A stretch of 64,000 nt of DNA, from positions 3,968,001 to 4,032,000 of the forward strand of contig NZ_CP146022.1 of assembly GCF_036967205.1 (NCBI RefSeq). Reading direction: 5' to 3'. How positions within the stretch are numbered: position 1 is the first letter of the stretch; each line of letters starts with the position of its first letter. Below, in pieces: positions 37,311-60,060 of this stretch. Source of the stretch: Streptomyces sp. Q6. GTDB lineage: Bacteria > Actinomycetota > Actinomycetes > Streptomycetales > Streptomycetaceae. Made by a program: the position numbers and the translations under genes. Under the pieces are notes generated by a model that was not told the origin of the DNA, did not search any database, and saw only the letters and a list, made by a program, of their open reading frames with translations.

Positions 37311-38300
37311 TCACAGCGCCTTCGCCCCGTCCTCGGTGACGCGCGTGGCACCGAAGTAGTCAGGCGTGTCGATGGGGTCGAATCGAATGACGGCCCCCGG
37401 CCGCGGGGCGTCGATCATGTACCCGCCCCCGACATAGATCCCCACATGGCGAATGGCCCGGCTGTTGGTGAGGTCGTCCGAGAAGAACACCAGGTCACCC
37501 GGGAGCAGCTCGGCGCGCTTGGGGTGCGGTCCGGCGTTGTACTGGTCGTTCGCCACGCGCGGCAGCGTGATCCCGACCGTCTCGTACGCGGCCTTGGTCA
37601 GCCCGGAGCAGTCGAACCGCCCGCCCTGGTCGGCGGTGCCGTTCCCGCCCCACAGATACGGGGTGCCGAGCTTCTTCTGCGCGAAGTAGATGGCCGCCGC
37701 GGCCTGCTGCGACGGCTGCACCCGCCCGACCGGCCGGGCGAAGGACTTCTCCAGCGTCGTGATCGTCTTCACGTAGTTCTGGGTCTCGCGGTACGGCGGC
37801 ACGCCCTTGTACTTGATGACGGCGTACGCGCCCGCGTTGTAGGAGGCGAGCATGTTCTTCGTCGCGTCGCCGGGCACGTCCTTCACGTACGAGGCGAGCT
37901 TGCAGTCGTAGCTCGCGGCCGACGGGATGGCGTCGTCCGGGTCCCAGATGTCGCGGTCCCCGTCCCCGTCCCCGTCCACCCCGTGCGTGGCCCAGGTCCC
38001 GGCGATGAACTGCGCGATCCCGTAGGCCTTCGCCGGGCTCGTCGCCTTCGGGTTGAACCCGCTCTCCTGGTAGAGCTGCGCGGCGAGCAGCGCCGGGTTG
38101 ATCGCGGGGCACAGATTGCCCCACTTCTGCACGAGCGCCTGGTACGCGGCCGGCACGGAGCCCTTGGCGAGGCCGACGGCCCCCTGCCCGACCCCGTTGG
38201 TCAGGCTTCCCGCCGCCATGTACGTGCCGACGACCAGCAGGGTCATGAATCCGGTGCCCCCGGCGACGGCCGATCCCGCGACGATCCACGCCTTACGCAC
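37311..38300 (-). CDS. VirB1-like bifunctional wall hydrolase (lytic transglycosylase + NlpC/P60)
   Basis: The product is 329 aa. A membrane anchor (about 5-28) precedes a lytic transglycosylase domain with catalytic Glu in QLYQESGFNPKA and SYNAG, and then an NlpC/P60 peptidase domain with Cys in GRFDCSGLTKAAY and His in RAIRHVGIYVGGG. Such two-domain enzymes open peptidoglycan for type IV secretion in Gram-positives. GTG 38300 was chosen for the RBS (GAGGCGG, about 8 nt). It is transcribed away from the secretion-like genes to its right and probably serves them. Confidence 0.88.
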   Translation of the reverse strand: MRKAWIVAGSAVAGGTGFMTLLVVGTYMAAGSLTNGVGQGAVGLAKGSVPAAYQALVQKWGNLCPAINPALLAAQLYQESGFNPKATSPAKAYGIAQFIAGTWATHGVDGDGDGDRDIWDPDDAIPSAASYDCKLASYVKDVPGDATKNMLASYNAGAYAVIKYKGVPPYRETQNYVKTITTLEKSFARPVGRVQPSQQAAAAIYFAQKKLGTPYLWGGNGTADQGGRFDCSGLTKAAYETVGITLPRVANDQYNAGPHPKRAELLPGDLVFFSDDLTNSRAIRHVGIYVGGGYMIDAPRPGAVIRFDPIDTPDYFGATRVTEDGAKAL

Positions 38301-38630
38301 CGTCAACCGCCTCTCGCCACAAGGAAGTCCCACGCCCGGACGCCCGCATTCTACGGGCGGCCGCCGGGACACAGGGGGTGTTGTCGCCTGTCGTGGCGTT
38401 CTCCCAGCTCATTGCTCCACGTAATCCCCCGTGATACACAGAGTGACCATACGTTCCTTCGCATACGGACCCGCCTCCCACAGCGGGCCTCCGAGCGCGG
38501 AGGCGTAGGAACTCAGCCAAGGAATGGCGCCAAGTGTGCAGGCATCAGCGGCGTTCTGAGGAAGAATGGGCTTGACCTCTGCGCTGCGGCGGGGGCGACA
38601 GAACTACCCACATGGGGCGGTGAGTTACAC
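38301..38630. other. divergent promoter region of the secretion-like locus
   Basis: This is 330 bases without a convincing gene, between the divergent VirB1-like and VirB2-like genes. TTGACC at 38572 could be a -35 for the rightward transcript; the -10 is not clear. Otherwise I see nothing distinctive. Confidence 0.4.
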
Positions 38631-38939
38631 ATGCTGCTGGCAGCCGAAAAGGGCGACATCACGACCATCATCGGCGGGATCGCCCCTGACTGGGGCCCGT
38701 TCGGGACCCTGGGCAACGAGGCGCGCGTGATGATCGAGGTGGTGATGGCGGTGGCCATCCTGCTGTGCCTCGGCATCGCGATCTGGGGCGCGGCCAAACA
38801 ACGGATCGGGGCGACGGCGCTGCGCGACACCTTCAGCGCCGAGCAGGGCAAGGGCCTGATCATCGCGGGCCTGACCGGGGTCTTCATCATCGGGTCCCTC
38901 GGCACGCTCTTCACCATCGTGTACGGCATGGCCGTCTAG
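38631..38939 (+). CDS. VirB2/TrbC-like two-helix membrane protein
   Basis: The product is 102 aa. It has a short N-terminal amphipathic part (MLLAAEKGDITTIIGG), a hydrophobic helix (IEVVMAVAILLCLGIAIWG), a charged loop (AAKQRIGATALRDTFSAEQGKG) and a second helix (LIIAGLTGVFIIGSLGTLFTIVYG). This hairpin topology and position are those of VirB2/TrbC pilin-type subunits and their Gram-positive equivalents. The RBS is a purine run before ATG 38631. The pilin role is inferred from topology and neighbours, not sequence identity. Confidence 0.75.
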   Translation: MLLAAEKGDITTIIGGIAPDWGPFGTLGNEARVMIEVVMAVAILLCLGIAIWGAAKQRIGATALRDTFSAEQGKGLIIAGLTGVFIIGSLGTLFTIVYGMAV

Positions 38940-39138
38940 CCCGGCCCACGCACCGTCAGTTTCGGGCCGGTCCCACCCGGTTACCTCTCCTTCACCCCTG
39001 TCCCCCACGTCCCGTCGTGCCCACCGGCTGAGGTTGCGTCTCCCTGATGTCGAGTCACCACACCGCGCCCGCGCGGGAACCAGCACGGCTACCGTCGTAT
39101 GCGGTGGTTCAACCAGAGGTTGAGGGGGCGTGCGCCGA

Positions 39139-39951
39139 ATGAGTCTCGACGACCGTGGTGACGACGACTTCTACGGCGGTACGGGGCAGACCCGCACCCG
39201 GCTCCCCGAGGGCTCGGGCAGCGATGTCTACGGCGGTTCCCGCAGACCGGGCCGCTCCTCGTCCCGTTCCCTGGTGACCGTGGTCGGCGTGGTGGTGCTC
39301 CTGATCGCGGCGATCGCGTTCGCGAACCGCGGCGACGACGGGCCGTCCGGCGGCGAGGCGGGCTCCGAGGCCGCGGCGGGGGCGTCCCCGACGGCCCCCA
39401 CCGGCACGAAGCCGGTGAGTTCGGGCTTCGCCCACGACGAGCAGGGGGCGCAGTCCGCGGCGGCGAACTACGCGGTGCAGCTCGGCGGGGACGGCATGTT
39501 CAACACCGAGCGGCGGCACTCCATCGTGGACGCCCTCTACACGAGCGCCGCGGCGGCCAGGCTCAAGGACCCGATGGACAAGGCGTACTCCACGGACTTC
39601 CTGAGCAAGCTGGGTCTCGACGCCGACGGCCGGGCGCCGCAGGGCAGCACGTTCGTCTCGCGCACGATTCCGGCCGGCACGAAGACGCTCCGGTACGGCG
39701 GCGGCACCGCGAAGGTCTCGGTCTGGTTCATGGGGCTCCTCGGCGTCTCCGGCACGAACTCCACGAACCCGGTCACCACGACCTGGCAGACCTGGACCTT
39801 CGACCTGCGCTGGACCGGCGGCGACTGGAAGATCGTCTCCGACTCCCAGAAGGACGGGCCCACCCCCGTCCCCGGGGACCAGCGGGCCTCCGACTCCGAC
39901 GACATCAGCAAGGCCATCGAGGAGTACGGAGGGTTCTCGTATGCCCGGTAG
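39139..39951 (+). CDS. single-pass membrane protein, VirB8/TcpC-position subunit
   Basis: The product is 270 aa. An acidic/Gly-rich cytoplasmic head (DDRGDDDFYGGTGQTRTRLPEG) precedes one helix (about 42-60) and an extracellular alpha/beta domain with WQTWTFDLRWTGGDWKIV, reminiscent of NTF2-like folds used by VirB8/TcpC. The start ATG 39139 (MSLDDRG) has GAGGGGG about 10 nt upstream; GTG 39130 is an alternative. The next gene starts inside its last codons. The subunit role is inference from topology and place in the locus. Confidence 0.75.
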   Translation: MSLDDRGDDDFYGGTGQTRTRLPEGSGSDVYGGSRRPGRSSSRSLVTVVGVVVLLIAAIAFANRGDDGPSGGEAGSEAAAGASPTAPTGTKPVSSGFAHDEQGAQSAAANYAVQLGGDGMFNTERRHSIVDALYTSAAAARLKDPMDKAYSTDFLSKLGLDADGRAPQGSTFVSRTIPAGTKTLRYGGGTAKVSVWFMGLLGVSGTNSTNPVTTTWQTWTFDLRWTGGDWKIVSDSQKDGPTPVPGDQRASDSDDISKAIEEYGGFSYAR

Positions 39952-41293
39952 TCCACGCCGCGCGCTCAGGATCACCGCCGCCGTCGCGGCCGTACAGACC
40001 ACGGCCGTCCTGCTGGCCACGCGGGCCATGGCCGCGCCCGAACCCACCAGCGACCCCTGCGGCCTCATCCACGGCCGCGCCAAGCAGTACTGCGAGCGCG
40101 GCGACAAGGGCGGCACCGGTGGCACCACCGGCGGTGGCGGGACCACCCCCGACGTCACCAACCCCCTCGACCCCCTGTCCAGCCTCGCCAAGGGCTGCGC
40201 CGACGCCGCGTCCTGGACCGTCGACCTGCTCAGCGAGGCCGTGAAGAAGACCGCCGAGGTCGACTTCACCAACACCAAGTTCCTTCAGCAGTACGCCGTC
40301 GTGTTCGCCGCGTCGACGATCCTCACGCTGCTCCTGTGGCTGCTCGCCGTCGCCAAGCGGGCCGTGCGCGGCGTGCCGCTGAGCACGGCGATCTCGGAGG
40401 CCGTCGGCTTCCTCTGGCTGACCGTGCTGGCGTCGGCGTTCACGCCGCTCATCCTGTACACGGTCGTCTCCGCGGCGGACGGCGTCACCGACGTGCTGGC
40501 CAAGGCGACGGGCAACCAGACGGACACGTTCTTCGGGACGTTCTCGCAGGCGCTGAAGAAGGGCGACGACATCGGCGGCGGGCCGATCATGCTGATCATC
40601 GTCTCGCTCGTGTCGATCATCGCCGCCGGTGTGCTCTACCTGGAGCTGTATCTGCGGGCCGTGCTGCTGTACGTCGGTGCCCTGCTCGGCGTCATCGTGT
40701 ACTCGGGGCTCGTCGACAAGAACCTGTGGGGCCATGTCCGCCGCTGGGTCGGGATCATGGTCGCCGTCATCCTCGTCAAACCGGTGATCGTCATCGTGCT
40801 CGGGCTCGCGGGCGCGCTGTCCAGCAGCGACGACGGACCGGACGCGCTCGCGGCCGTCGTCTCCGGACTCGCCATCGTGCTGCTCGCCATCTTCGCGAGC
40901 GGCATGATCTACCGCTTCGTCCCCGGCTTCGGCGACGAGATGGCCAACGTACGAAAGAACCGGATCATGCAGGGCGCCGAGGGCAAGGCCGCCGCGATGA
41001 TCTCCTCGCCCGCCGCGCTCGTCTCGCAGGGCATCAAGACCCACAGCACCCGCGCGGACAGCGGAGGTGCCTCGGGCGGAGCCGGCCAGGCCCGTCCGTC
41101 CAACCCCGCGTCCGGTGGTGTGGCCGCGCACAGCTCGCGGCAGGGCGGGTCAGGGGGCGGCGGCGGAACTGTCCCCTCCGCCGCACCCCCACCCCGTACG
41201 AGTCCCACGAACACCCCGCACGCGGGCAGCCGCGGCGGTAGCGACACCGGTCCCCGAAGCAACGGCAAACCGCAAGGAGGTGCAGGGCGTTGA
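39941..41293 (+). CDS. VirB6/TrbL-like polytopic membrane protein
   Basis: The product is 450 aa. A cleavable-looking signal (to about residue 32), a Cys pair (DPCGLIHGRAKQYCERG) and a Gly/Thr linker precede about six transmembrane helices between residues 110 and 325, in the pattern of TrbL/VirB6 channel proteins. The C-terminal 120 residues are a disordered Gly/Ser/Pro-rich cytoplasmic tail. The start ATG 39941 has GGAGGG 7 nt upstream. It overlaps the preceding gene by 11 bases and the next by 4. Confidence 0.82.
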   Translation: MPGSPRRALRITAAVAAVQTTAVLLATRAMAAPEPTSDPCGLIHGRAKQYCERGDKGGTGGTTGGGGTTPDVTNPLDPLSSLAKGCADAASWTVDLLSEAVKKTAEVDFTNTKFLQQYAVVFAASTILTLLLWLLAVAKRAVRGVPLSTAISEAVGFLWLTVLASAFTPLILYTVVSAADGVTDVLAKATGNQTDTFFGTFSQALKKGDDIGGGPIMLIIVSLVSIIAAGVLYLELYLRAVLLYVGALLGVIVYSGLVDKNLWGHVRRWVGIMVAVILVKPVIVIVLGLAGALSSSDDGPDALAAVVSGLAIVLLAIFASGMIYRFVPGFGDEMANVRKNRIMQGAEGKAAAMISSPAALVSQGIKTHSTRADSGGASGGAGQARPSNPASGGVAAHSSRQGGSGGGGGTVPSAAPPPRTSPTNTPHAGSRGGSDTGPRSNGKPQGGAGR

Positions 41294-42849
41294 CGACCCA
41301 GTCCCATGTGTCCCCCCAGGTCACGCCCCGCCGTACATATCTGATCGGCCGCGCCCGGCCGAACGCGATCGTCGGCAGGAACCGCGAATCCGGCGAGCTC
41401 GCCCTGATCATCGTCGGTGCCTTCCTCGGCATGATGTGCGGTCTTCTCGTCCCGGTCCTCTCCCTGCGGATCGTGCTGCTCATGGGCTTCCCGCTGCTGG
41501 CACTCGCCGCGGTCTACGTCCCGTACAAGCACCGCACGTTCTACAAGTGGTTCGAGATCAACCGGAGTTACAAGCGGTCCCTGCGGCGCGGCACCGCCTA
41601 CCGCTCGCGCCCCATGGAGGCCGGCACCCGGCTCGACGGGCGTGAGGTCGAGGTCGGGCCGCCGCCCGGGATCGGCCGCCTGACCTGGCTCGCCGCGCCG
41701 TTCGGCCCTGACGAGATCGCCGTCCTGCTGCACGCCGACCGGCGCACGGTGACCGCCGCCATCGAGATCGAGGGCCCGGGTGTGGGCCTGCGCGACTCCG
41801 AGGACCAGGAGGCCCTCGTCGACCGGTTCGGGACGCTGCTCAAGCACGTCGCCAACGGGGACGGGTTCGTGACGCGGCTCCAGATGCTCGCCCGCACCCT
41901 GCCCGCCGACCCCGACGCCCACGCCAAGGACGTCGCGGTACGCGGTGACGACCGCGCCCCCGGCTGGCTCCAGGAGTCGTACGAACAGTTGCAGTCCATG
42001 GTGTCGACGAGCAGTGAGCAGCACCGCGCGTACCTGGTGGCCTGCATGCACTACACCCGCGAGCTCGCCGCCGAGGCCAACGCGATGGCCCGCGCCACCC
42101 GCCCGAAGGCCGGCAAGAAGGTCGACAGGGACGCGGGGCTCGCGGTCGTCATGGCCCGGGAACTGACCGACATCTGCTCGCGGTTGCAGGAGGCCGACAT
42201 CCGGGTCCGGCAGCCGCTGGGCCAGGGGCGGCTCGCCTCGCTGGTCCACTCCATGTACGACCCGGACCACCCCATCGACCACATCCAGGCGATGACGAAA
42301 CGTAATGCCTGGCCGGCCGAGCTCGACGCCATGGAGCCCACGTACCTCCAGGCCAAGACGCGCGAGTCGTCGACGCGCGCGCCCTGGTGCCACGCCACGG
42401 CCTGGGTCAAGGAGTGGCCGATGACGCCGGTGGGCGTCAACTTCCTCGCGCCGCTGCTCGTGCACACCCCGGACGTGATCAGGACCGTCGCCGTCACGAT
42501 GGACCTGGAACCGACGGAGGTCGCCATCGAGCGCATGCTGACGGAGAAGACGAACGACGAGGCGGAGGCGTCCCGCGCCGCCAAGATGAACCGGACCGTC
42601 GACCCCCGCGACATCGCCGCGCACGGCCGCCTCGACCAGCGCGGCGAGGACCTGGCGAGCGGCGCGGCCGGCGTGAACATCGTCGGCTACATCACGGTCT
42701 CCTCGCGCAATCCGGACGCCCTGGCCCGGGACAAGCGGACCATCAGGGCGTCGGCCGGAAAGTCGTACCTGAAGCTGGAATGGTGCGACCGCGAGCACCA
42801 CCGGGCGTTCGTGAACACCCTGCCGTTCGCCACCGGCATCCGACGGTAG
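41290..42849 (+). CDS. SCO6880-family protein (PrgI/TcpE head plus VirB4 N-terminal-like domain)
   Basis: The product is 519 aa. Two transmembrane helices (LALIIVGAFLGMMCGLLVPVL and IVLLMGFPLLALAAVYV, residues about 37-80) are followed by a long soluble region without a P-loop. The fold and position match the SCO6880 family, in which the membrane and N-terminal parts of a VirB4 system sit in a separate polypeptide from the ATPase. The gene overlaps the VirB6-like gene by 4 bases, and the ATPase gene follows 15 bases later. It is probably the platform on which the ATPase docks. Confidence 0.85.
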   Translation: MTTQSHVSPQVTPRRTYLIGRARPNAIVGRNRESGELALIIVGAFLGMMCGLLVPVLSLRIVLLMGFPLLALAAVYVPYKHRTFYKWFEINRSYKRSLRRGTAYRSRPMEAGTRLDGREVEVGPPPGIGRLTWLAAPFGPDEIAVLLHADRRTVTAAIEIEGPGVGLRDSEDQEALVDRFGTLLKHVANGDGFVTRLQMLARTLPADPDAHAKDVAVRGDDRAPGWLQESYEQLQSMVSTSSEQHRAYLVACMHYTRELAAEANAMARATRPKAGKKVDRDAGLAVVMARELTDICSRLQEADIRVRQPLGQGRLASLVHSMYDPDHPIDHIQAMTKRNAWPAELDAMEPTYLQAKTRESSTRAPWCHATAWVKEWPMTPVGVNFLAPLLVHTPDVIRTVAVTMDLEPTEVAIERMLTEKTNDEAEASRAAKMNRTVDPRDIAAHGRLDQRGEDLASGAAGVNIVGYITVSSRNPDALARDKRTIRASAGKSYLKLEWCDREHHRAFVNTLPFATGIRR

Positions 42850-42864
42850 AGGGAGAGCGCGCGC

Positions 42865-44280
42865 ATGCGGGATCCGATGTCGCTTCTCACGGACGCCTTC
42901 ACCTCCTTCCTGTTCGGGAAGGTGGAGACGACCCGGCTGCCCGTCCGGACGTCGACGGGTCAGGCCCAGGCCGTCTATCTGCCGACCGCCGCCCCCGGGC
43001 TCGGCGACTCCGGCGTGATCATCGGCCGTGAGGTGTACTCCGGCAAGGGCTACATCTACGACCCCTTCCAGCTGTACGGGCAGCAGCTCCCCGCGCCGCA
43101 CTGGCTGGTCCTCGGCGAGTCCGGGAACGGCAAGTCGGCGCTGGAGAAGACGTACGTGCTGCGGCAGTTGAGGTTCCGCGACCGGCAGGTCGTCGTCCTC
43201 GACGCGCAGGGCGAGGACGGGGTCGGCGAATGGAACCTCATCGCGCAGGAGCTGGGGATAACTCCCATCCGGCTCGACCCGACGGCCGCCCTGGACATGG
43301 GCATCCGGCTCAACCCGCTCGACCCGGCGATCACGACGACGGGCCAGCTGGCGCTCCTTCGCACCATCATCGAGGTCGCGATGGGGCACGGCCTGGACGA
43401 GCGCTCCGGCTTCGCCCTGAAGGTCGCGCACGCCTATGTCAACGAGACCATCGTCGAGCGCCAGCCGGTCCTGACCGACATCGTCGAGCAGCTGCGCCAC
43501 CCGGAACCGGAGTCGGCCGAGGCGATGAACGTCGCCATAGAGGACGTACGGGCCTGGGGGCTCGACGTCGCTCTCGTCCTCGACCGGCTCGTCGACGGTG
43601 ACCTGCGCGGCATGTTCGACGGCCCGACGACGGTCGGCATCGACCTGGACGCGCCGCTGATCGTCTTCGACCTCTCGCACATCGACCGCAACTCGATCGC
43701 GATGCCGATCCTGATGGCGATCGTCGGCGTCTGGCTGGAGCACACCTGGATCCGCCCCGACCGGAAGAAGCGCATCTTCCTGGTCGAGGAGGCCTGGCAC
43801 ATCATCAACTCCCCGTTCGTGGCGCAGCTGTTCCAGCGTCTGCTGAAGTTCGGGCGACGGCTCGGCCTGTCCTTCGTGGCGGTGGTCCACCACTTGTCCG
43901 ACGTGGTGGACGGCGCGGCGGCGAAGGAGGCCGCGGCGATCCTGAAGATGGCCTCCACGAGGACGATCTACGCCCAGAAGGCCGACGAGGCGCGGGCCAC
44001 GGGCCGCGTCCTCGGGCTGCCACGCTGGGCGGTCGAGATCATCCCGACGCTCACACCGGGCATCGCGGTCTGGGACGTCAACGGCAACGTCCAGGTGGTC
44101 AAGCACCTGATCACCGAGACGGAACGCCCACTGGTCTTCACCGACCGCGCCATGACCGAGACGTCCGAGGAGCATCTGGCCGAGGACGCCCTGCACGCCG
44201 CCGAGTTGGAGGCGGAGGAGCGGGCGGCGGCGTTCGTCGAGCAGCGGCTGAGCGACTCCTCCGAATCCACGGTGGCCTGA
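42865..44280 (+). CDS. VirB4-type secretion ATPase
   Basis: The product is 471 aa. Walker A GESGNGKS (residues about 84-91) and Walker B RIFLVEEAWHI (about 300-310) are intact, followed by the FGRRLGLSFVAVVHHLSDV motif and arginine-rich sensor regions typical of VirB4/TraC ATPases. The N-terminal domain of canonical VirB4 is missing and is supplied by the upstream SCO6880-type protein. It is a cytoplasmic motor for substrate or pilin movement. The RBS is GGGAGAG before ATG 42865. Confidence 0.9.
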   Translation: MRDPMSLLTDAFTSFLFGKVETTRLPVRTSTGQAQAVYLPTAAPGLGDSGVIIGREVYSGKGYIYDPFQLYGQQLPAPHWLVLGESGNGKSALEKTYVLRQLRFRDRQVVVLDAQGEDGVGEWNLIAQELGITPIRLDPTAALDMGIRLNPLDPAITTTGQLALLRTIIEVAMGHGLDERSGFALKVAHAYVNETIVERQPVLTDIVEQLRHPEPESAEAMNVAIEDVRAWGLDVALVLDRLVDGDLRGMFDGPTTVGIDLDAPLIVFDLSHIDRNSIAMPILMAIVGVWLEHTWIRPDRKKRIFLVEEAWHIINSPFVAQLFQRLLKFGRRLGLSFVAVVHHLSDVVDGAAAKEAAAILKMASTRTIYAQKADEARATGRVLGLPRWAVEIIPTLTPGIAVWDVNGNVQVVKHLITETERPLVFTDRAMTETSEEHLAEDALHAAELEAEERAAAFVEQRLSDSSESTVA

Positions 44281-44285
44281 GCGAG

Positions 44286-45914
44286 ATGATGATGCGGGAC
44301 GAGCGCGGGTACCGACGTGACGACGGGCGCCGGTACGGCGGTGACGAGCGCGGCCGTGGCGGTGTCCCGGACGGCCTGCTCGTCGGCGTGCTGGCGTTCC
44401 TGCTCGGCATGACGATCCTGGTGTGGACGGCGACGGGCCTCTCGGGTCTGTTCGCGAAGGGCGCGTGGCCGAACCGGGTGACGTTCGGTCATACGCCGCT
44501 CGCCATGCGGTCGTTGATCGCGGCGCCGCACGATCTCGTGGGCGCCTGGCCGAACACCCCGAAGGCCCAGCTGTCGGGGTACGGCCTGTTCTGGGGCCTG
44601 TTCATCGGGCAGCTGATGATCCTGGTGGTCCTCGCGGTGTTCGTGGCGGGAACGCTGGCGCGGTGGCGCGCGGTGCGCCGGGGAGCCCCCGAGCGGGCCG
44701 CCCGCCGGGGGCGCGGGGCCGTGTCGGTCAGCGGCTCCCCCGCGGGGCGCGGCCAGTCTCCCGCGCCGGTCACGGACGACGAACCTCCGGCCCGGCGGAC
44801 GCCCGTCCCGCACCCGGTCGAGGCCGAACCTCCCCTCGAAGCCGCACCCCCGCCGGCTCAAGCGGCATCCCCGGACCAAGCGGTACCCCCGGTTCAAACG
44901 GCATCCCCGACCCAAGCGGTACCCCCGGCGCAAGCCGAATCCCCCGTCCAGGCCGAGCCTGTGGTGCATGCGGGGCTCCCGGCCCCGCGCGGCCCCCTCC
45001 TCCTGGGCACGCCCCAGGACCGCCACCCCCAGGCCGTCCAGGCCATCCAGGACGCCGAGGGCCCGGCCCTCGTCATCACGTCGTCGCCGCAGGTCTGGGA
45101 GGAGACGAAGGACGCGCGGGCCAAGCTCGGCCCGGTCCTCCTCTACGACCCCACGCACCGCTGCGACACCCCGGCCCGTATGCACTGGAACCCCGCGTCC
45201 GGCTGCGAGAACAAGGCGGTCGCGGCGCACCGGGCCAGTGCGCTGCTCGCCCCGATAAGGCCGACGGCCCGCCTCGACTCCGAGCTGGCCGAGACCGCCG
45301 AGATCCTCCTGCGCTGCTACCTGCACGCCGCGGCCGCCGAAGGCAAACCGTTCCGCCATGTCCACCGCTGGGCGCAGGGCACCCAGGTCCAGGACGCCGT
45401 GCGCATCCTCCGTACGAACCCCAAGGCCGTCTCCGGCACAGCGGGTGAACTCGAAGCCGCCCTCACCTCGCACCCCGAACGCCGCGACATGGCACAGGAG
45501 TTGACCGCCCGCGCCCTGTCCTCCCTGTTCACCGTGCACATCCGTGAGGCGTGCACCCCGAACCGAACTGATGCGCTCACCCTGGATTCCTTCGTGGACG
45601 AAGGGGGCACGCTTTATGTGGTGGGTGAACCCATCGAGGACCCGAAGGGAAATCCCGGTGCGATGCCGCTCCTGACGGCCCTCGCCTCGAGCGTGGTCGA
45701 GCACGGCCGGCGCATGGCCGAACGGTCACCCGCCGGTCGGCTCGACCCACCAATGACGCTCGTCCTGGACGACGTCGCGGCGGTGGCTCCGCTTCCCCAG
45801 CTGCCGGAGCTGCTGTCCACCGGAGCGGACCGGGGCCTTCTGACCCTGGCCCTGCTCCGGTCCCGGGAACAGGGCCGCTCCCGCTGGCCGGACGCGGAAC
45901 TGCCGCTCGCCTGA
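44286..45914 (+). CDS. VirD4/TraG-like coupling protein with degenerate P-loop
   Basis: The product is 542 aa. Two transmembrane helices (about 28-56 and 95-122) are followed by a Pro/Ala-rich linker (130-235) with two 12-residue repeats and a TraG/VirD4-type domain. Where coupling proteins have a GPxxSGKT Walker A, this one reads LGTPQDRHP (about 239-247). The following GPALVITSSPQVWEETKDARAKLGPVLLYDP and the Walker B-like LVLDDVAAVAPLPQLPELL (about 489-508) are kept. It therefore probably does not hydrolyse ATP, or uses another subunit's site. It is the last gene of the locus. Confidence 0.82.
   Translation: MMMRDERGYRRDDGRRYGGDERGRGGVPDGLLVGVLAFLLGMTILVWTATGLSGLFAKGAWPNRVTFGHTPLAMRSLIAAPHDLVGAWPNTPKAQLSGYGLFWGLFIGQLMILVVLAVFVAGTLARWRAVRRGAPERAARRGRGAVSVSGSPAGRGQSPAPVTDDEPPARRTPVPHPVEAEPPLEAAPPPAQAASPDQAVPPVQTASPTQAVPPAQAESPVQAEPVVHAGLPAPRGPLLLGTPQDRHPQAVQAIQDAEGPALVITSSPQVWEETKDARAKLGPVLLYDPTHRCDTPARMHWNPASGCENKAVAAHRASALLAPIRPTARLDSELAETAEILLRCYLHAAAAEGKPFRHVHRWAQGTQVQDAVRILRTNPKAVSGTAGELEAALTSHPERRDMAQELTARALSSLFTVHIREACTPNRTDALTLDSFVDEGGTLYVVGEPIEDPKGNPGAMPLLTALASSVVEHGRRMAERSPAGRLDPPMTLVLDDVAAVAPLPQLPELLSTGADRGLLTLALLRSREQGRSRWPDAELPLA
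44863..44934 (+). repeat. 36-bp tandem repeat inside the VirD4-like gene
   Basis: Two copies with a period of 36 bases encode ASPDQAVPPVQT and ASPTQAVPPAQA in the flexible linker between the membrane and the ATPase-like domain. Copy number could vary between strains. Confidence 0.7.
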
Positions 45915-45924
45915 GGCGAGTCGC

Positions 45925-46566
45925 TCACACCCCGTACAGCTTCAGGAACGTCCGCACGCCGCTCTCCACGCGCGCCTCGACCTCCGCCTCCGGCATCGGC
46001 ACCACCCCGAAGAACGTGTCGACGGTCACGGACCCCGGCACCAGCAGCATCAAGTACCGTGCCGCTTCCGCCGATCCGTCCTCGTCGATCGCCAACAGCC
46101 CCCGCGCGCCCAGCTCGGCGAGCCGCTCGCGCACCGCCTCCACCGACGCGCGCGGTCCCGTGCGCTGCCACTCCTCGACGACACCGGCGGGCAGCCGCGT
46201 CCCCTCGGAGATGATCTGGCGTACGAGCCGCATGTGCGCGGCGTGCTCGCCGCGCCGCCCCATCCACTCCCGGGCGAAGGCGACGAGGTCCTTCTCGACG
46301 TCCGTGACCTTGCTCAAGTGCCGTTCCGCGATGGCGACATGGACCGCGGTGACGGCGGCGGCGCTGTCGAGCAGCGCCTCGCGGAAGAGGTTCTCCTTGC
46401 CGCCGAAGTGGTTGTAGAGCGTGCGCGTCGAGACCCCCGCCTCGGCCGCGATCTCGTCGATGCCCGCGCGCGTGTAGCCCTCGCGTCCGAAGACCGTCCG
46501 CGCCCCGCGCAGCAGTGCCTGCCGCTTCTCGGCCGTGCCCCTGCGCCCCTGCCGCTGCTCCGCCAT
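45925..46566 (-). CDS. TetR-family repressor
   Basis: The product is 213 aa: a TetR helix-turn-helix (IDEIAAEAGVSTRTLYNHFGGKENLFREAL) and a C-terminal ligand domain related to AcrR/QacR-type regulators. It diverges from the MFS gene at 46660; the 93-base gap contains two palindromic TACAAC sites, so it most likely represses both itself and the efflux gene. The ATG at 46566 has GGAGGA upstream. Inducer unknown. Confidence 0.93.
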   Translation of the reverse strand: MAEQRQGRRGTAEKRQALLRGARTVFGREGYTRAGIDEIAAEAGVSTRTLYNHFGGKENLFREALLDSAAAVTAVHVAIAERHLSKVTDVEKDLVAFAREWMGRRGEHAAHMRLVRQIISEGTRLPAGVVEEWQRTGPRASVEAVRERLAELGARGLLAIDEDGSAEAARYLMLLVPGSVTVDTFFGVVPMPEAEVEARVESGVRTFLKLYGV

Positions 46567-46612
46567 GCCAGAACTCCTCCGCTCACGTCCAGCCTAGGCA
46601 CAGAGACCTAGG

Positions 46613-46649
46613 TACAACGACCGTTGCACCTACTACAACCACGGTTGTA
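46613..46649. promoter_or_regulatory. TetR operator pair
   Basis: Site 1 is TACAAC - 4 nt - GTTGCA (46613-46628). Site 2 is TACAACC - AC - GGTTGTA (46634-46649), a perfect 7-bp palindrome. Start-to-start distance is 21 bp, two helical turns. Site 2 ends 10 bases before the MFS ATG. Confidence 0.75.
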
Positions 46650-46659
46650 CTTTACCGGC

Positions 46660-48171
46660 ATGGCAACCGCACCCCAGGCATCGGCGGCCCGCGAAGTCGG
46701 CGGCGGCCGCGCCGCTCTCACCCTGATCGTCGTCCTCCTCGGCATGCTCACGCTCCCGATGGCGATGTCCGGCACCACCGTGGCCCTGCCCCGGATCGGC
46801 GCCGACCTCGACGCCTCCGGCGCCGCCCTCCAGTGGGTGGTCGTCGGCTACTTCCTCGCCGCTTCCTCGTTCATGCTGGTCGCCGGGTCGCTCGGTGACC
46901 TCTACGGCCGCCGCAGGATCCTCACGACGGGCGCCGCCCTCTACACGGCGGGCACCCTCGCCTCGGCCCTCGCGCACCACATCCTGCTGCTCGACGCGGC
47001 CCGCCTCCTGTCCGGCGTCGGCGCCGCGGGCGTGATGGCGAGCGGCGGCTCCCTGCTCGCCGCCACCTTCACCGGAGCGGCCCGCACCCGCGTCTTCGCC
47101 TCGCTCGGCACCACGGCGGGCCTCGGCCTCGCCTTCGGCCCGACCTTCTCCGGCCGGCTGGTCGACGCCCTCGGCTGGCGCGCCACGTTCCTGTCGTACG
47201 TCGCCGTGGGCGCCGTCATCCTCGCCGGTACGCGCCTGATGCCCGAGTCCCGGGCCGACCTCGCGCCGCGCGTCGACAAGGCGGGCGCCGCGACGTTCAT
47301 CGCCGGCCTGGCCCTCGCCCTCTTCGCCGTCACCCAGGGCTCCGCGTCGGGCCCGACCGCCCCCGCCACCCTGCTGCCCGCGACGCTCGCGGCGGCCCTC
47401 CTGCTCGCCTTCGTACGGGTCGAGCGCCGCGTCGTCCGCAGCGGCGAGGGCCGCCCGATCCTGGATCTGCGGCTCGCCCGCAACCCCGCGTTCCTCGGCT
47501 GGATCGTCGGCGCCTTCGGGCTCGGCGCGGGCACCACCGGCGTCCTCGCCTTCCTGCCCACCTACCTCCAGGGCGCGAGCGGCACGACGGCCGGGACCGC
47601 GGGCCTGACCCTCCTCCTGATGACGGTGCCGGTCCTCGCCCTGCCCCCGCTCGGCGCCCGCCTGGTCAACCGCGGCGTCCCGGCCCGGCACCTCCTGGTC
47701 CTGTCCCTGCTGCTGATCGCGGCGGGCAACGCCTGGCTGACCACGCTCCACCCCGACATCCCCGCCACCGCCCTCGCGGGCCCGCTGCTCACCATCGGCG
47801 CCGGCCAGGGCCTGTCCCTCGGCATCGTCGACGCGCAGGCCCTGTCGATGGTCGCCCCGTCCGAGGTCGGCATGGCCTCCGGCTTCCTGAACACGGTGCG
47901 CGGCGGCACCGGCGCCGTCATGCTCACGGCCTTCGGGGCGCTGCTCCTCACCGCGGTCGAGTCCCGCGTCGGCCCCGACGTGTCGGCGGCGCGGATCACG
48001 GCGGGCGCGGGCGGCCACGCGGCCGCGTTCACAGCGGCCTGGAAAGTGGCGCTGTGGTCGGTGACCGGCCTGATGGCGGCACTGGCGGCGCTCACGTACC
48101 GGCTGCTGTCCCCTCCCGCCCGGCGCCCGGCACCACGCGCCGGCACCTCCCCGTACACGAAGACAGCCTGA
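46660..48171 (+). CDS. MFS efflux transporter, DHA2 (EmrB/QacA) type
   Basis: The product is 503 aa with 14 predicted transmembrane helices. It has motif A LGDLYGRRRI, motif C-like GLGLAFGPTFSGRLVD and the N-terminal SGTTVALPRIGADLDAS. It expels drugs or toxic organics with proton exchange. The ATG at 46660 starts MATAPQ; the mRNA leader is short because the operator lies immediately upstream. The FMN-reductase gene follows after 29 bases, so the two are likely one detoxification operon. Confidence 0.92.
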   Translation: MATAPQASAAREVGGGRAALTLIVVLLGMLTLPMAMSGTTVALPRIGADLDASGAALQWVVVGYFLAASSFMLVAGSLGDLYGRRRILTTGAALYTAGTLASALAHHILLLDAARLLSGVGAAGVMASGGSLLAATFTGAARTRVFASLGTTAGLGLAFGPTFSGRLVDALGWRATFLSYVAVGAVILAGTRLMPESRADLAPRVDKAGAATFIAGLALALFAVTQGSASGPTAPATLLPATLAAALLLAFVRVERRVVRSGEGRPILDLRLARNPAFLGWIVGAFGLGAGTTGVLAFLPTYLQGASGTTAGTAGLTLLLMTVPVLALPPLGARLVNRGVPARHLLVLSLLLIAAGNAWLTTLHPDIPATALAGPLLTIGAGQGLSLGIVDAQALSMVAPSEVGMASGFLNTVRGGTGAVMLTAFGALLLTAVESRVGPDVSAARITAGAGGHAAAFTAAWKVALWSVTGLMAALAALTYRLLSPPARRPAPRAGTSPYTKTA

Positions 48172-49563: not shown

Positions 49564-49575
49564 CCCTAAAACTTG

Positions 49576-49693
49576 TTCGGCGGCGTCCTACTCTCCCACA
49601 GGGTCCCCCCTGCAGTACCATCGGCGCTGTGAGGCTTAGCTTCCGGGTTCGGAATGTAACCGGGCGTTTCCCTCACGCTATGACCACCGAAAC
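49576..49693 (-). rRNA. rrf: 5S ribosomal RNA
   Basis: About 118 nt on the minus strand, beginning GTTTCGGTGGTCATAGCG and ending near CGCCGCCGAACAA. These sequences, and the central CCGAACCCGGAAGCTAAG, are those of streptomycete 5S rRNA. Ends are within a few bases. Confidence 0.95.
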
Positions 49694-49780
49694 ACTATGA
49701 AACTGTCAACCGGAGTCGTGGCCTATGACTACGACGGTTGTTCATGGTTTCAGAACCAACACAGTGGACGCGAGCAACTG

Positions 49781-54730
<4,950 letters not shown>

Positions 54731-55406
54731 ATGTTTCCCCGTAATCGGGGTGACACCACGAGAGCGGAACAACCAGGAGGAATAATCCCGGTCGTTCACA
54801 GCGTCCTCGCTGTGCGCCTGCCAACCCACTAGAGGCCGACAGGACTTTTTCAAAGGAACCTCATCTTCGACCCGAAAGGGCCGGAGACGGGGTATCAACA
54901 TATCTGGCGTTGATTTTTGGCACGCTGTTGAGTTCTCAAGGAACGGACGCTTCCTTTGTACTCACCCTCTCGGGCTTTCCTCCGGGCGCTTCCCTTCGGT
55001 CTTGCTGTCTTGCGTTTCCGACTCTATCAGATCTTTCCGATCCGATTTCCTCGGGGTCTTGCTGGTCCTGCTTTTCGCTTTCCGGCCTTTCGGCCTTCCT
55101 GCGGTGTCGACTCTATCAGATCCTTTCGGGCCTGATTCCCAGTCAACCGGGTTTGTCTTTGCGGCTGTTGGGCCGTTCCGACGTCCAGAACATTAGCGGA
55201 TTCCCGCCCCCGTACCTAATCGGGGTCGAAATCGAATTCGGGCATGCCGAAAACAATCCCGGAAGGAGATCGTGCTGGTGTTTTGGGTGCCGCATCAGCG
55301 GCGGAAGGTGTTGTCGGAGAACCGTTACGGCTCTGCGGCAACCCGAAGAACCTTACGCATCGGGCGGGGGCGTGTCAACCCCCGCCTCCATGAATCTCTG
55401 GGAGCC
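54731..55406 (-). other. rRNA operon leader and promoter region
   Basis: This is 676 bases without a gene. Nearest 16S lies the processing/antitermination leader with TTGAGAACTCAACAGCG (near 54930). Further upstream are two copies of an element reading AAAG[A/G]ATCTGATAGAGTCG on the minus strand (55019-55036 and 55108-55126, 89 bp apart), each with a possible TAGAGT -10. The strongest promoter is at 55350-55378. Several tandem promoters are normal for streptomycete rrn operons. Confidence 0.8.
55350..55378 (-). promoter_or_regulatory. rRNA promoter (TTGACA-17-TAAGGT)
   Basis: On the minus strand, TTGACA (55373-55378), a 17-base spacer and TAAGGT (55350-55355) form a near-consensus vegetative promoter directed to the rRNA genes, about 620 bases upstream of 16S. 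It lies 28 bases beyond the stop of the marR gene. Confidence 0.75.
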
Positions 55407-58249: not shown

Positions 58250-59902
58250 TCAGCCCGTGGCGCGCGGGAGGACGAACTCGCACCACACCGCCTTGCCGCC
58301 GCCCGGCGTGCGCCGCGAGCCCCAGTTCGAGGTGATCGTCGCGACGATGGCGATGCCCCGGCCCGTCTCGTCCGCCGGGTCCGCTCTGCGGCGACGGGGC
58401 AGGTGGTCGTCGCCGTCGGTCACCTCGATGATCAGGCGGCGGTCCGTGCGGCGCAGCCGCAGCCGCATCGGTGGGGTGCCGTGCTGGAGCGAGTTGGCGA
58501 CGAGCTCGCTCGCGGCGAGGACGCCCAGGTCGTGGAGTTCCGGGGTGAAGCGCCAGCTCGACAGGACGCCGGAGGCGAAGGCCCGCGCGCGCGGTGCCGC
58601 CTCGACGCCGCCGAGGAGTTCGAGCGCCGCGTTGCGGAACAGTTCGCCGTCCGCGCCCTTGCGGGCCGGGTGCTGGAGGACCAGGACCGCGACGTCGTCG
58701 TCGTGGTCCGCGGTGACGCCGAGCGCGCGGATCAGCCGGTCGCAGACGACCTGGGGCGTGCCGGTCGCACCGCCCAGCGCCCGTTCGAGCGCGGCCACGC
58801 CCTCGTCGATGTCCTCGTCCCTGCGCTCCACCAGACCGTCGGTGTACATGACGGCGGTCGAGCCGGGGCCGAGCGGCACCGAGCCCGAGGTGTGCAGCCA
58901 GCCGCCGGTGCCGAGCGGCGGGCCCGTGGGCTCCTCGGCGCGGTGGATCGTGCCGTTCTCGTCGCGTACGAGGATGGGGAGATGGCCCGCGGACGCGTAG
59001 ACCAGGCGGCCCTCGTTCGGGTCGTGGACGGCGTAGACGCAGGTGGCGATCTGCTGCGGGTCGATCTCCGTGGCCAGGCCGTCGAGGAGTTGCAGTACCT
59101 CGTGCGGGGGCAGGTCGAGGCGGGCGTAGGCGCGGACCGCCGTGCGGAGCTGGCCCATGACGGCCGCCGCGCGGACACCGCGGCCCATGACGTCGCCGAT
59201 GACCAGGGCCGTGCGGCCGCCGCCGAGGGTGATGACGTCGTACCAGTCGCCGCCGACCGCGGCCTCGGTGCCGCCGGGCTGGTAGGTGGCGGCGATCCGC
59301 AGGTCGTCGGGCTCCTCCAGCTCCTGGGGCAGCAGGGAACGCTGGAGGGTGACGGCCGTCTCGCGCTGCTCGCGCTCGCTGGTCCGCAGCCGCTCGGCGG
59401 CCTCCGCGTGGTCGGTGACGTCGGCCGCGAAGATCAGCACGCCGGGGCCCTCCGCGGTCTCCAGCGGAGTGCAGGTGATCGTGTACGAGCGGCCGCCGGC
59501 GGCCTTGCGGGACTTGACCGTGCGCGGCTTCGCGCTGCGCAGCACCTGGTCGAGCAGGGGCAGCAGGCTCAGGTCGGCGAGTTCGGGCAGGGCCTCGCGG
59601 GCCGGTTCGCCGGTGGGGCGGTCGCCGAAGGCCGCGGTGTACGCGTCGTTGACGTACGCGACGCGGTGCTCCGGGCCGTGCACCAGGGCGACCAGGGCCG
59701 GGATGCGGTCGAGGACCTCGCGGACGGGCAGCTCGCCGACGACGCCACCGCCGCCGTCCTCGGGGAGTTCGTCGGTCGGCAGCTGCTCGGCGCGGGCCGC
59801 GGGCACCGCGCCGTCGCCTCGCTGGGGTACGCCGTGGTCGACCCGCGCCGCGGCGCGGCGCTGCGTTCCGGGGAGCCGGGCGCTCCAGCGCGTGAAGTTC
59901 AC
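58250..59902 (-). CDS. PAS-SpoIIE phosphatase-HATPase signalling protein
   Basis: The product is 550 aa from GTG 59902 (NFTRWSARLPGTQRR); ATG 59950 is an alternative start. Domains in order are PAS (about 55-150: EHRVAYVNDAYTAAFG), PP2C/SpoIIE (about 185-385: SLLPQELEEPDDLRIAATYQPGG, GGDWYDVI, IGDVMGRGVRAAAVM, VMYTDGLVERRDEDI, HDDDVAVLVL) and an RsbW-like HATPase (about 415-545: LAASELVANSLQHGTPP, DETGRGIAIV). Kinase-like and phosphatase domains together suggest control of an anti-anti-sigma factor in stress or development, as is common in Streptomyces. Confidence 0.92.
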   Translation of the reverse strand: MNFTRWSARLPGTQRRAAARVDHGVPQRGDGAVPAARAEQLPTDELPEDGGGGVVGELPVREVLDRIPALVALVHGPEHRVAYVNDAYTAAFGDRPTGEPAREALPELADLSLLPLLDQVLRSAKPRTVKSRKAAGGRSYTITCTPLETAEGPGVLIFAADVTDHAEAAERLRTSEREQRETAVTLQRSLLPQELEEPDDLRIAATYQPGGTEAAVGGDWYDVITLGGGRTALVIGDVMGRGVRAAAVMGQLRTAVRAYARLDLPPHEVLQLLDGLATEIDPQQIATCVYAVHDPNEGRLVYASAGHLPILVRDENGTIHRAEEPTGPPLGTGGWLHTSGSVPLGPGSTAVMYTDGLVERRDEDIDEGVAALERALGGATGTPQVVCDRLIRALGVTADHDDDVAVLVLQHPARKGADGELFRNAALELLGGVEAAPRARAFASGVLSSWRFTPELHDLGVLAASELVANSLQHGTPPMRLRLRRTDRRLIIEVTDGDDHLPRRRRADPADETGRGIAIVATITSNWGSRRTPGGGKAVWCEFVLPRATG

Positions 59903-60060
59903 TGTGGGACAAGCCTCGTGGGGTCGAGGGCGGGCGAAGAGCCCGCCCATGGTCGTGGACCAGTCTGGCCGACCGTACTGACAAACATCAGACGCCGGTC
60001 CGTGGGCGGGAGTTCCGCGTTCCGGTGGGCCGGACGCCCGCGATGGCGTCAACAGAGCGG

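Follow-up and report, generated by a model that had tools for sequence, protein, structure and literature searches.

In Streptomyces coelicolor, the co-transcribed genes SCO4126 to SCO4131 form the sporulation operon cmdABCDEF (Xie 2009, PMC2782261), and the neighbouring tgdA (SCO4132) has been described as encoding a transglycosylase (PMC6585502). In this work, we analyzed a window of 64,000 nucleotides, positions 3968001-4032000 of the 8.57-Mb contig NZ_CP146022.1 of Streptomyces sp. Q6 (genome 8.95 Mb), in which seven genes at 37311-45914 are the orthologue of this operon together with tgdA. We consider it probable that cmd-tgdA is the channel half of an actinobacterial conjugative type IV secretion system (T4SS), domesticated before the order diversified, inherited vertically and driven by its VirB4 ATPase, for which DNA export of the relaxase/VirD4 type is unlikely.

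Deletion of the whole cmd operon, or of any single gene except SCO4126 (cmdA), gives pale colonies with fewer spores, and the cmdA deletion has no visible phenotype. Branching is aberrant in the cmdB and cmdA-F deletions, of whose spores 8% and 6%, respectively, are anucleate, compared with 0.1% in the wild type; actinorhodin is overproduced in the cmdB, cmdD, cmdE and cmdA-F deletions; and deletion phenotypes are described in three species (PMC2782261). The same authors reported that lysines of CmdB are required in vivo and that transfer of an SLP2-derived plasmid is unaltered by the cmd deletion (data not shown by them); they described CmdB as VirB4-like and CmdB to CmdD as relatives of SLP2 transfer genes, and posed a type IV-like channel as a question (PMC2782261). 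A later transposon screen recovered cmdBCDEF and tgdA mutants with actinorhodin raised to an equal level, and SCO5677 as well; tgdA mutants have an antibiotic phenotype in common with cmd mutants, and others have linked tgdA, cmd and SCO5677 mutants to envelope homeostasis (PMC6585502).

Identity of the locus

The seven genes, one reverse and six forward, are tightly joined open frames lying where an earlier note, made from the sequence alone, had placed them:

37311..38372, reverse: tgdA (SCO4132) orthologue, VirB1-like wall hydrolase with hydrophobic anchor, SLT transglycosylase and NlpC/P60 peptidase domains
38373..38630, no strand: divergent tgdA/cmdF intergenic region with the conserved block GTGATACACAGAGTGAC and a conserved leader
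38631..38939, forward: cmdF (SCO4131) orthologue, two-helix VirB2/pilin-like membrane protein
39139..39951, forward: cmdE (SCO4130) orthologue, bitopic, VirB8-fold domain at residues about 96-246
39941..41293, forward: cmdD (SCO4129) orthologue, candidate polytopic VirB6/TrbL-like channel protein
41290..42849, forward: cmdC (SCO4128) orthologue, membrane-anchored VirB4 N-terminal domain, SCO6880 family
42865..44280, forward: cmdB (SCO4127) orthologue, VirB4 ATPase domain with Walker A GESGNGKS
44286..45914, forward: cmdA (SCO4126) orthologue, VirD4/TraG-like, lacking Walker A and with Walker B DD in place of DE

The operon-type junctions claimed in that note hold as well: from cmdE through D, C and B to A they are, in order, an 11-bp overlap, a 4-bp overlap, a 15-bp gap and a 5-bp gap. 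The end of cmdF lies 199 bp from the start of cmdE, just ahead of which there is an in-frame GTG at 39130.

The equivalence with S. coelicolor rests on the gene set, the neighbours, the cmdB primers and printed descriptions, rather than on a direct protein alignment; the two loci are alike in the first three, and the window holds the orthologue in another Streptomyces. Each of the two published cmdB mutagenesis primers has one match in the window, with 0 and 3 mismatches beyond the mutated bases, and the targeted lysine codons are 413 and 90 of the window CmdB. The K90-named primer matches the C-terminal lysine region and the K404-named primer the Walker A lysine, so the two names look swapped in PMC2782261. 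The printed descriptions fit gene by gene: SCO4131 is tabulated as a membrane protein with two transmembrane domains, and as "down" in a bldA study (PMC2000904), and the two-helix protein of the window fits it; SCO4130 is a membrane glycoprotein (PMC6593405), which the protein in VirB8 position fits; and the hydrolase fits the transglycosylase SCO4132. The earlier note could name no function for the system; that statement falls, since the locus is cmdABCDEF with tgdA, known from sporulation (PMC2782261, PMC6585502).

A split VirB4 and a coupling protein without its motor motif

CmdB, CmdC, CmdE and CmdA each have their T4SS family or fold. Two of these assignments are new here: CmdE has the VirB8 fold, which provides the bitopic VirB8-fold protein of a T4SS channel core, and CmdC has the VirB4 N-terminal fold, from which it follows that CmdC and CmdB are together a split VirB4. 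CmdB matches AAA_10 (E 1.8e-13), its nearest solved structure is VirB4 (4ag5, E 2.4e-6), and its Walker A GESGNGKS is identical in 80 of 80 sequences; the locus thus has a VirB4 ATPase with intact Walker A, whose N-domain is a separate VirB4-fold protein. TgdA matches SLT (E 4.8e-16) and NLPC_P60 (E 2.1e-23). The T4SS-like character, the VirB8 call and the division of VirB4 over two genes, all proposed from the letters, are borne out by these folds; a lack of structural T4SS resemblance in the VirB6, VirB8 and VirB2 candidates had been named as what would refute the proposal, and CmdE, the VirB8 candidate, has such a fold, as does CmdC.

For CmdD and CmdF, topology and gene order agree with the VirB6 and VirB2 roles first proposed for them; the profile matches are weak and have brought no relative of solved structure, and both proteins are therefore treated here as candidates. 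CmdD, with 7 hydrophobic segments, matches TrbL_4 (E 7.6e-4) and the SCO6881 family (E 1.8e-8), both short of the family cut-offs, and among its 18 relatives family matches are likewise weak (TrbL_4 in 3, TrbL in 1). CmdF has two hydrophobic segments and a C-terminal TIVYGM present in 17 of 17 aligned rows, with a weak match to T4SS_pilin in 1 of 17 (E 0.0066). Compared by sequence with solved structures, the CmdC, CmdE, CmdF and CmdD profiles found no relative, and their low-scoring matches to ribosomal, capsid and histone chains were taken as chance.

The VirD4-like call for CmdA stands in part. The family is right (TraG-D_C, E 4.6e-5; TrwB matched by the CmdA profile, E 5.2e-5), but the nucleotide-binding motif has been lost. 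A cmdA match was present in 80 fetched loci, including the window's own genome; 71 of the 79 others gave a closed frame and 8 were dropped. At the place of the P-loop, GK[S/T] occurs in none of the 72 Streptomyces sequences aligned (71 plus the window; one apparently out of frame and one stopping short in the P-loop region, both unreadable there), and elsewhere in CmdA it occurs in 3 of 72. Walker B reads LDD, or LED in one sequence. Relatives on plasmids and in second copies read LDE or GDE and retain GPMGAGKT, GPMGSGKT or APPREGKT; the CmdA of a genome of family f2 reads GPARSGKA. ATP synthase b was matched too (E 0.0013), at positions 85-191 of the CmdA profile; these do not belong to the ATPase part, and the matches were set aside.

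In other members of the order the gene itself may be missing from its place: no cmdA match follows cmdB in four loci of family f3 (L091, L093, L094, L095), in the fragments L089 and L090 (also f3) or in one other genus of family f1 (L088). A whole-genome search of 12 genomes found no cmdA-like gene in two (G207, G393). In three (G200, G202, G206) the main match adjoins another VirB4 gene, 27-31% identical, away from cmd; G201 and G203 have cmdA-like matches too, and the other five have one at cmd. The active VirD4 coupling ATPase of a conjugative element was found neither in the motifs of CmdA nor as a PF02534 match anywhere in the window's genome, and a search of that genome with CmdB for a VirD4 or VirB4 partner gave the type VII secretion cluster as the sole other match. 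Judging from its aligned codons (median dN/dS, the ratio of nonsynonymous to synonymous substitution rates, 0.333 for the whole gene and 0.216 for the core), Streptomyces CmdA is not a pseudogene, although as a coupling protein it looks like a dead motor. Loss of the motif or of the gene, together with the silent cmdA deletion, suggests that the machine runs without a VirD4 motor.

A further relationship concerns type VII secretion. Its core protein EccE (L111, 7991-9382, reverse) resembles CmdC (window 41290-42849) in structure, and profile searches starting from either protein find the other, with controls; EccE appears homologous to CmdC and hence, through the fold of CmdC, to the N-terminal domain of VirB4. 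The open reading frame (ORF) beside eccE (L111, 7254-7988, reverse) has no Pfam or NCBIfam match and resembles CmdB residues 362-430 (38% over 71), as if the two products were a degenerate split VirB4. In the literature passages combining both topics that were available to us, the EccE-VirB4 link was not found stated; a TraF-YukC link between the two secretion types was published in 2026.

Relatives, descent and chromosomal setting

At a threshold of E 1e-15, plasmid relatives amount to 114 records, the best with 46-50% identity. On the Streptomyces plasmid pMDJK44.2 (MOBF), profiles find tgdA-, cmdF-, E-, D-, C-, B- and A-like genes (291, 94, 207, 378, 570, 347 and 324 bits) in the same order as in the window, running from the transglycosylase to a TraM-domain protein. 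Unlike the window, the plasmid has all seven genes on one strand, with the B- and A-like ones separated by a DUF6238 gene, and it carries a mobF relaxase and an intact VirD4 (GPMGSGKT / LDE); its CmdB is 39.9% identical. Four linear plasmids, all typed as non-mobilizable, have the cmdF- to cmdA-like genes; no TgdA-like match was found in them, and an M23 peptidase adjoins the genes in three. The loss series in CmdA points to a direction from plasmid to chromosome. Among Gram-negative T4SSs, Ptl, Brucella VirB and ComB resemble cmd in being VirB4-driven without VirD4; these are diderm systems, whereas cmd has no outer-membrane parts and serves the cell's own development. The SCO6880-type conjugation cluster (SCO6871-6884) contains the paralogues SCO6878, 6880 and 6881, which resemble CmdB, C and D (PMC2782261). 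In contrast to cmd, high-scoring SCO6880 copies are limited to some of 199 Streptomyces genomes, and SCO6878 and SCO6881 mutants have no sporulation phenotype (unpublished data of the authors, PMC2782261).

CmdC-family genes are present in 199 of 199 Streptomyces genomes (paralogues counted). Across the order, CmdB is matched at E 1e-30 or better in 292 of 294 genomes; the two exceptions are a genome whose cmdC stands where a contig ends and an assembly of about 850 contigs. At least two of the 292 matches are interrupted, cmdB lying in two pieces in the Streptomyces genomes G177 and G284, through sequencing error or a broken gene. Class-wide, 40 of 148 genomes have a CmdB match at 1e-20: 11 belong to the same genus, in one further genome the identity is 78%, and in the remaining 28 it is 27-37%. 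The genes tgdA-cmdF-E-D-C-B stand in line in 9 of 12 loci from the order and family f10 (L085-L096); the rest are the short contigs L089 and L090 and the locus L086, in which cmdF and tgdA are missing past an N-run at the start of cmdE that looks like a join between scaffolds. In 50 of 80 named Streptomyces loci the fetched stretch includes tgdA. The CmdB tree agrees with family and genus, and median dN/dS values (CmdB 0.059, CmdF 0.072, CmdC 0.126, CmdD 0.299, CmdE 0.453) indicate that purifying selection acts on the cmd genes; from this comparison of genomes the locus is probably core and vertically inherited. Genera of family f20 (L097-L100, L127) carry a VirB8-VirB6-CmdC-CmdB set with CmdB identities of 31-32%, in which the four longer stretches show no CmdA-like match; it is possibly a second resident system.

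Residence in the core chromosome, also proposed beforehand, agrees with this distribution and with the surroundings: a PAP2 phosphatase, an FAD oxidase, a TetR regulator, an MFS transporter, phosphate uptake genes and polyphosphate kinase (a description drawing on 25 of the 55 Pfam families found in 39 other ORFs of the window), with an rRNA operon at 49575-54731. Also in the window, 58253-60052 encodes a phosphatase of SpoIIE type that has PAS and HATPase domains. The absence of integrase, tRNA attachment site and relaxase asserted for the locus likewise holds: no tRNA was found in the window; the genome's 10 integrase matches all lie outside it, the closest about 270 kb past its end; and the relaxases PF03432 and PF08751 have no match genome-wide, other families such as MOBV and MOBH not having been searched at that scale. 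The single Replic_Relax match is on a second contig. A general search for inverted repeats, not specific for an origin of transfer, gave nothing in 38373-38630; in 45915-46700 it found 14 pairs, all of them imperfect or short.

Upstream of cmdF, GTGATACACAGAGTGAC at 38431-38447 hardly varies in an alignment of 75 regions (the window and 74 Streptomyces loci), where the leader up to the cmdF start is conserved too; GTGATACACAGAGTGAC is a likely regulator site. The WhiA-type motif GACAC was not found at a shared place in these regions, and bldA control through TTA was discarded, as the seven genes contain 0 TTA codons. Across 50 Streptomyces loci, tgdA and cmdF are 293 to 7223 bp apart, and the genes in between are of mixed kinds: often, as named by eye, a secreted trypsin-like protease adjoining tgdA, and also TetR/SDR pairs and XRE regulators; inspection by eye gave no cargo gene candidate common to the loci.

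What the machine may do

Altogether, the evidence is best explained by a plasmid-type DNA-transfer machine that would have settled in the chromosome without relaxase or working coupling motor and would now serve the development of its own cell. TgdA would open the wall; CmdE (VirB8), CmdD (VirB6) and the CmdC anchor would form a membrane complex; ATP hydrolysis by CmdB would drive the assembly of CmdF, export through the complex, or both; and CmdA would do no more than serve as a docking protein without motor function. All this would take place in aerial hyphae, where loss of the machine leads to faults in branching, septation and chromosome segregation (PMC2782261). The candidate cargo may be a protein, a wall-active factor or the CmdF polymer alone. 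The earlier description as a resident secretion machine thus holds as to residence and T4SS likeness, with secretion itself presumed from the sequences. That cmd-tgdA, having lost relaxase and coupling motor, exports or assembles something through the hyphal envelope on VirB4 alone and, in addition, that CmdC and EccE share one ancestor is a joint claim we put forward only tentatively.

Several points weigh against this explanation. The published cmd accounts used here hold no demonstration of secretion or of a channel, and the CmdB lysine mutants are possibly just unstable, according to their authors (PMC2782261). CmdF and CmdD, as candidates, match T4SS families weakly, and the purifying selection kept in the CmdA core implies that CmdA does something. 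A single domestication is not firmly shown, because the chromosomal copies are poorly supported as one clade (55/0). Finally, in a screen with markers of integrative conjugative elements (ICEs), each of the 11 strains studied had an element close to the middle of its chromosome, which was termed a defective ICE (PMC9513070); these markers may have picked up the cmd locus.

A signalling or scaffold complex, in which T4SS parts move nothing but position wall enzymes and sense the envelope, would suit the pleiotropic phenotypes, the tie of tgdA, cmd and SCO5677 mutants to envelope homeostasis (PMC6585502) and a CmdA without ATPase motifs; it is unlikely, though worth keeping in mind, in view of a CmdB Walker A without variation, a CmdB lysine required in vivo, stability aside (PMC2782261), and a pilin-like CmdF among the best conserved parts. 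Quite unlikely, in our judgement, is the DNA channel suggested by Xie and co-authors, which would act at sporulation septa to aid FtsK and ParAB in moving chromosomes. The anucleate spores of the cmdB and cmdA-F deletions (8% and 6% against 0.1%) and a VirB4-type ATPase, whose RecA-like fold those authors noted (PMC2782261), speak for it; against it stand a coupling motor that is degenerate or absent and a genome without PF03432 or PF08751 relaxases, and the segregation faults may be secondary, as branching and delayed aerial growth precede septation.

We regard as very improbable that the locus is a decaying ICE relic, even if the degenerate VirD4, the lack of relaxase and integrase at the locus and the possible scoring of such loci as defective ICEs (PMC9513070) would be expected of one, because it is found in nearly all genomes of the order, its tree follows families, it is under apparent purifying selection and its deletion has phenotypes in three species (PMC2782261). 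Just as improbable is a functional conjugation system for which other elements would supply the relaxase and the coupling protein: the Replic_Relax gene on the second contig and the plasmid copies of the same machine would provide for it, but the genome has no PF02534 coupling protein and SLP2-derived plasmid transfer was unchanged in the deletion (data not shown, PMC2782261).

Returning to the probable domesticated, VirB4-driven channel, its lost coupling ATPase is an example of what a machine derived from a T4SS may dispense with. We know of no other T4SS that serves the development of its own cell, and none is mentioned in the passages of a 2025 T4SS review available to us. If cmd transports anything, it would be a T4SS employed for the cell's own development, instead of mating or attack, and, as the sporulation operon of 2009 is now a machine with named parts, its cargo can be sought directly. 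If true, the EccE link would give type VII and type IV secretion another component in common, in addition to TraF-YukC.

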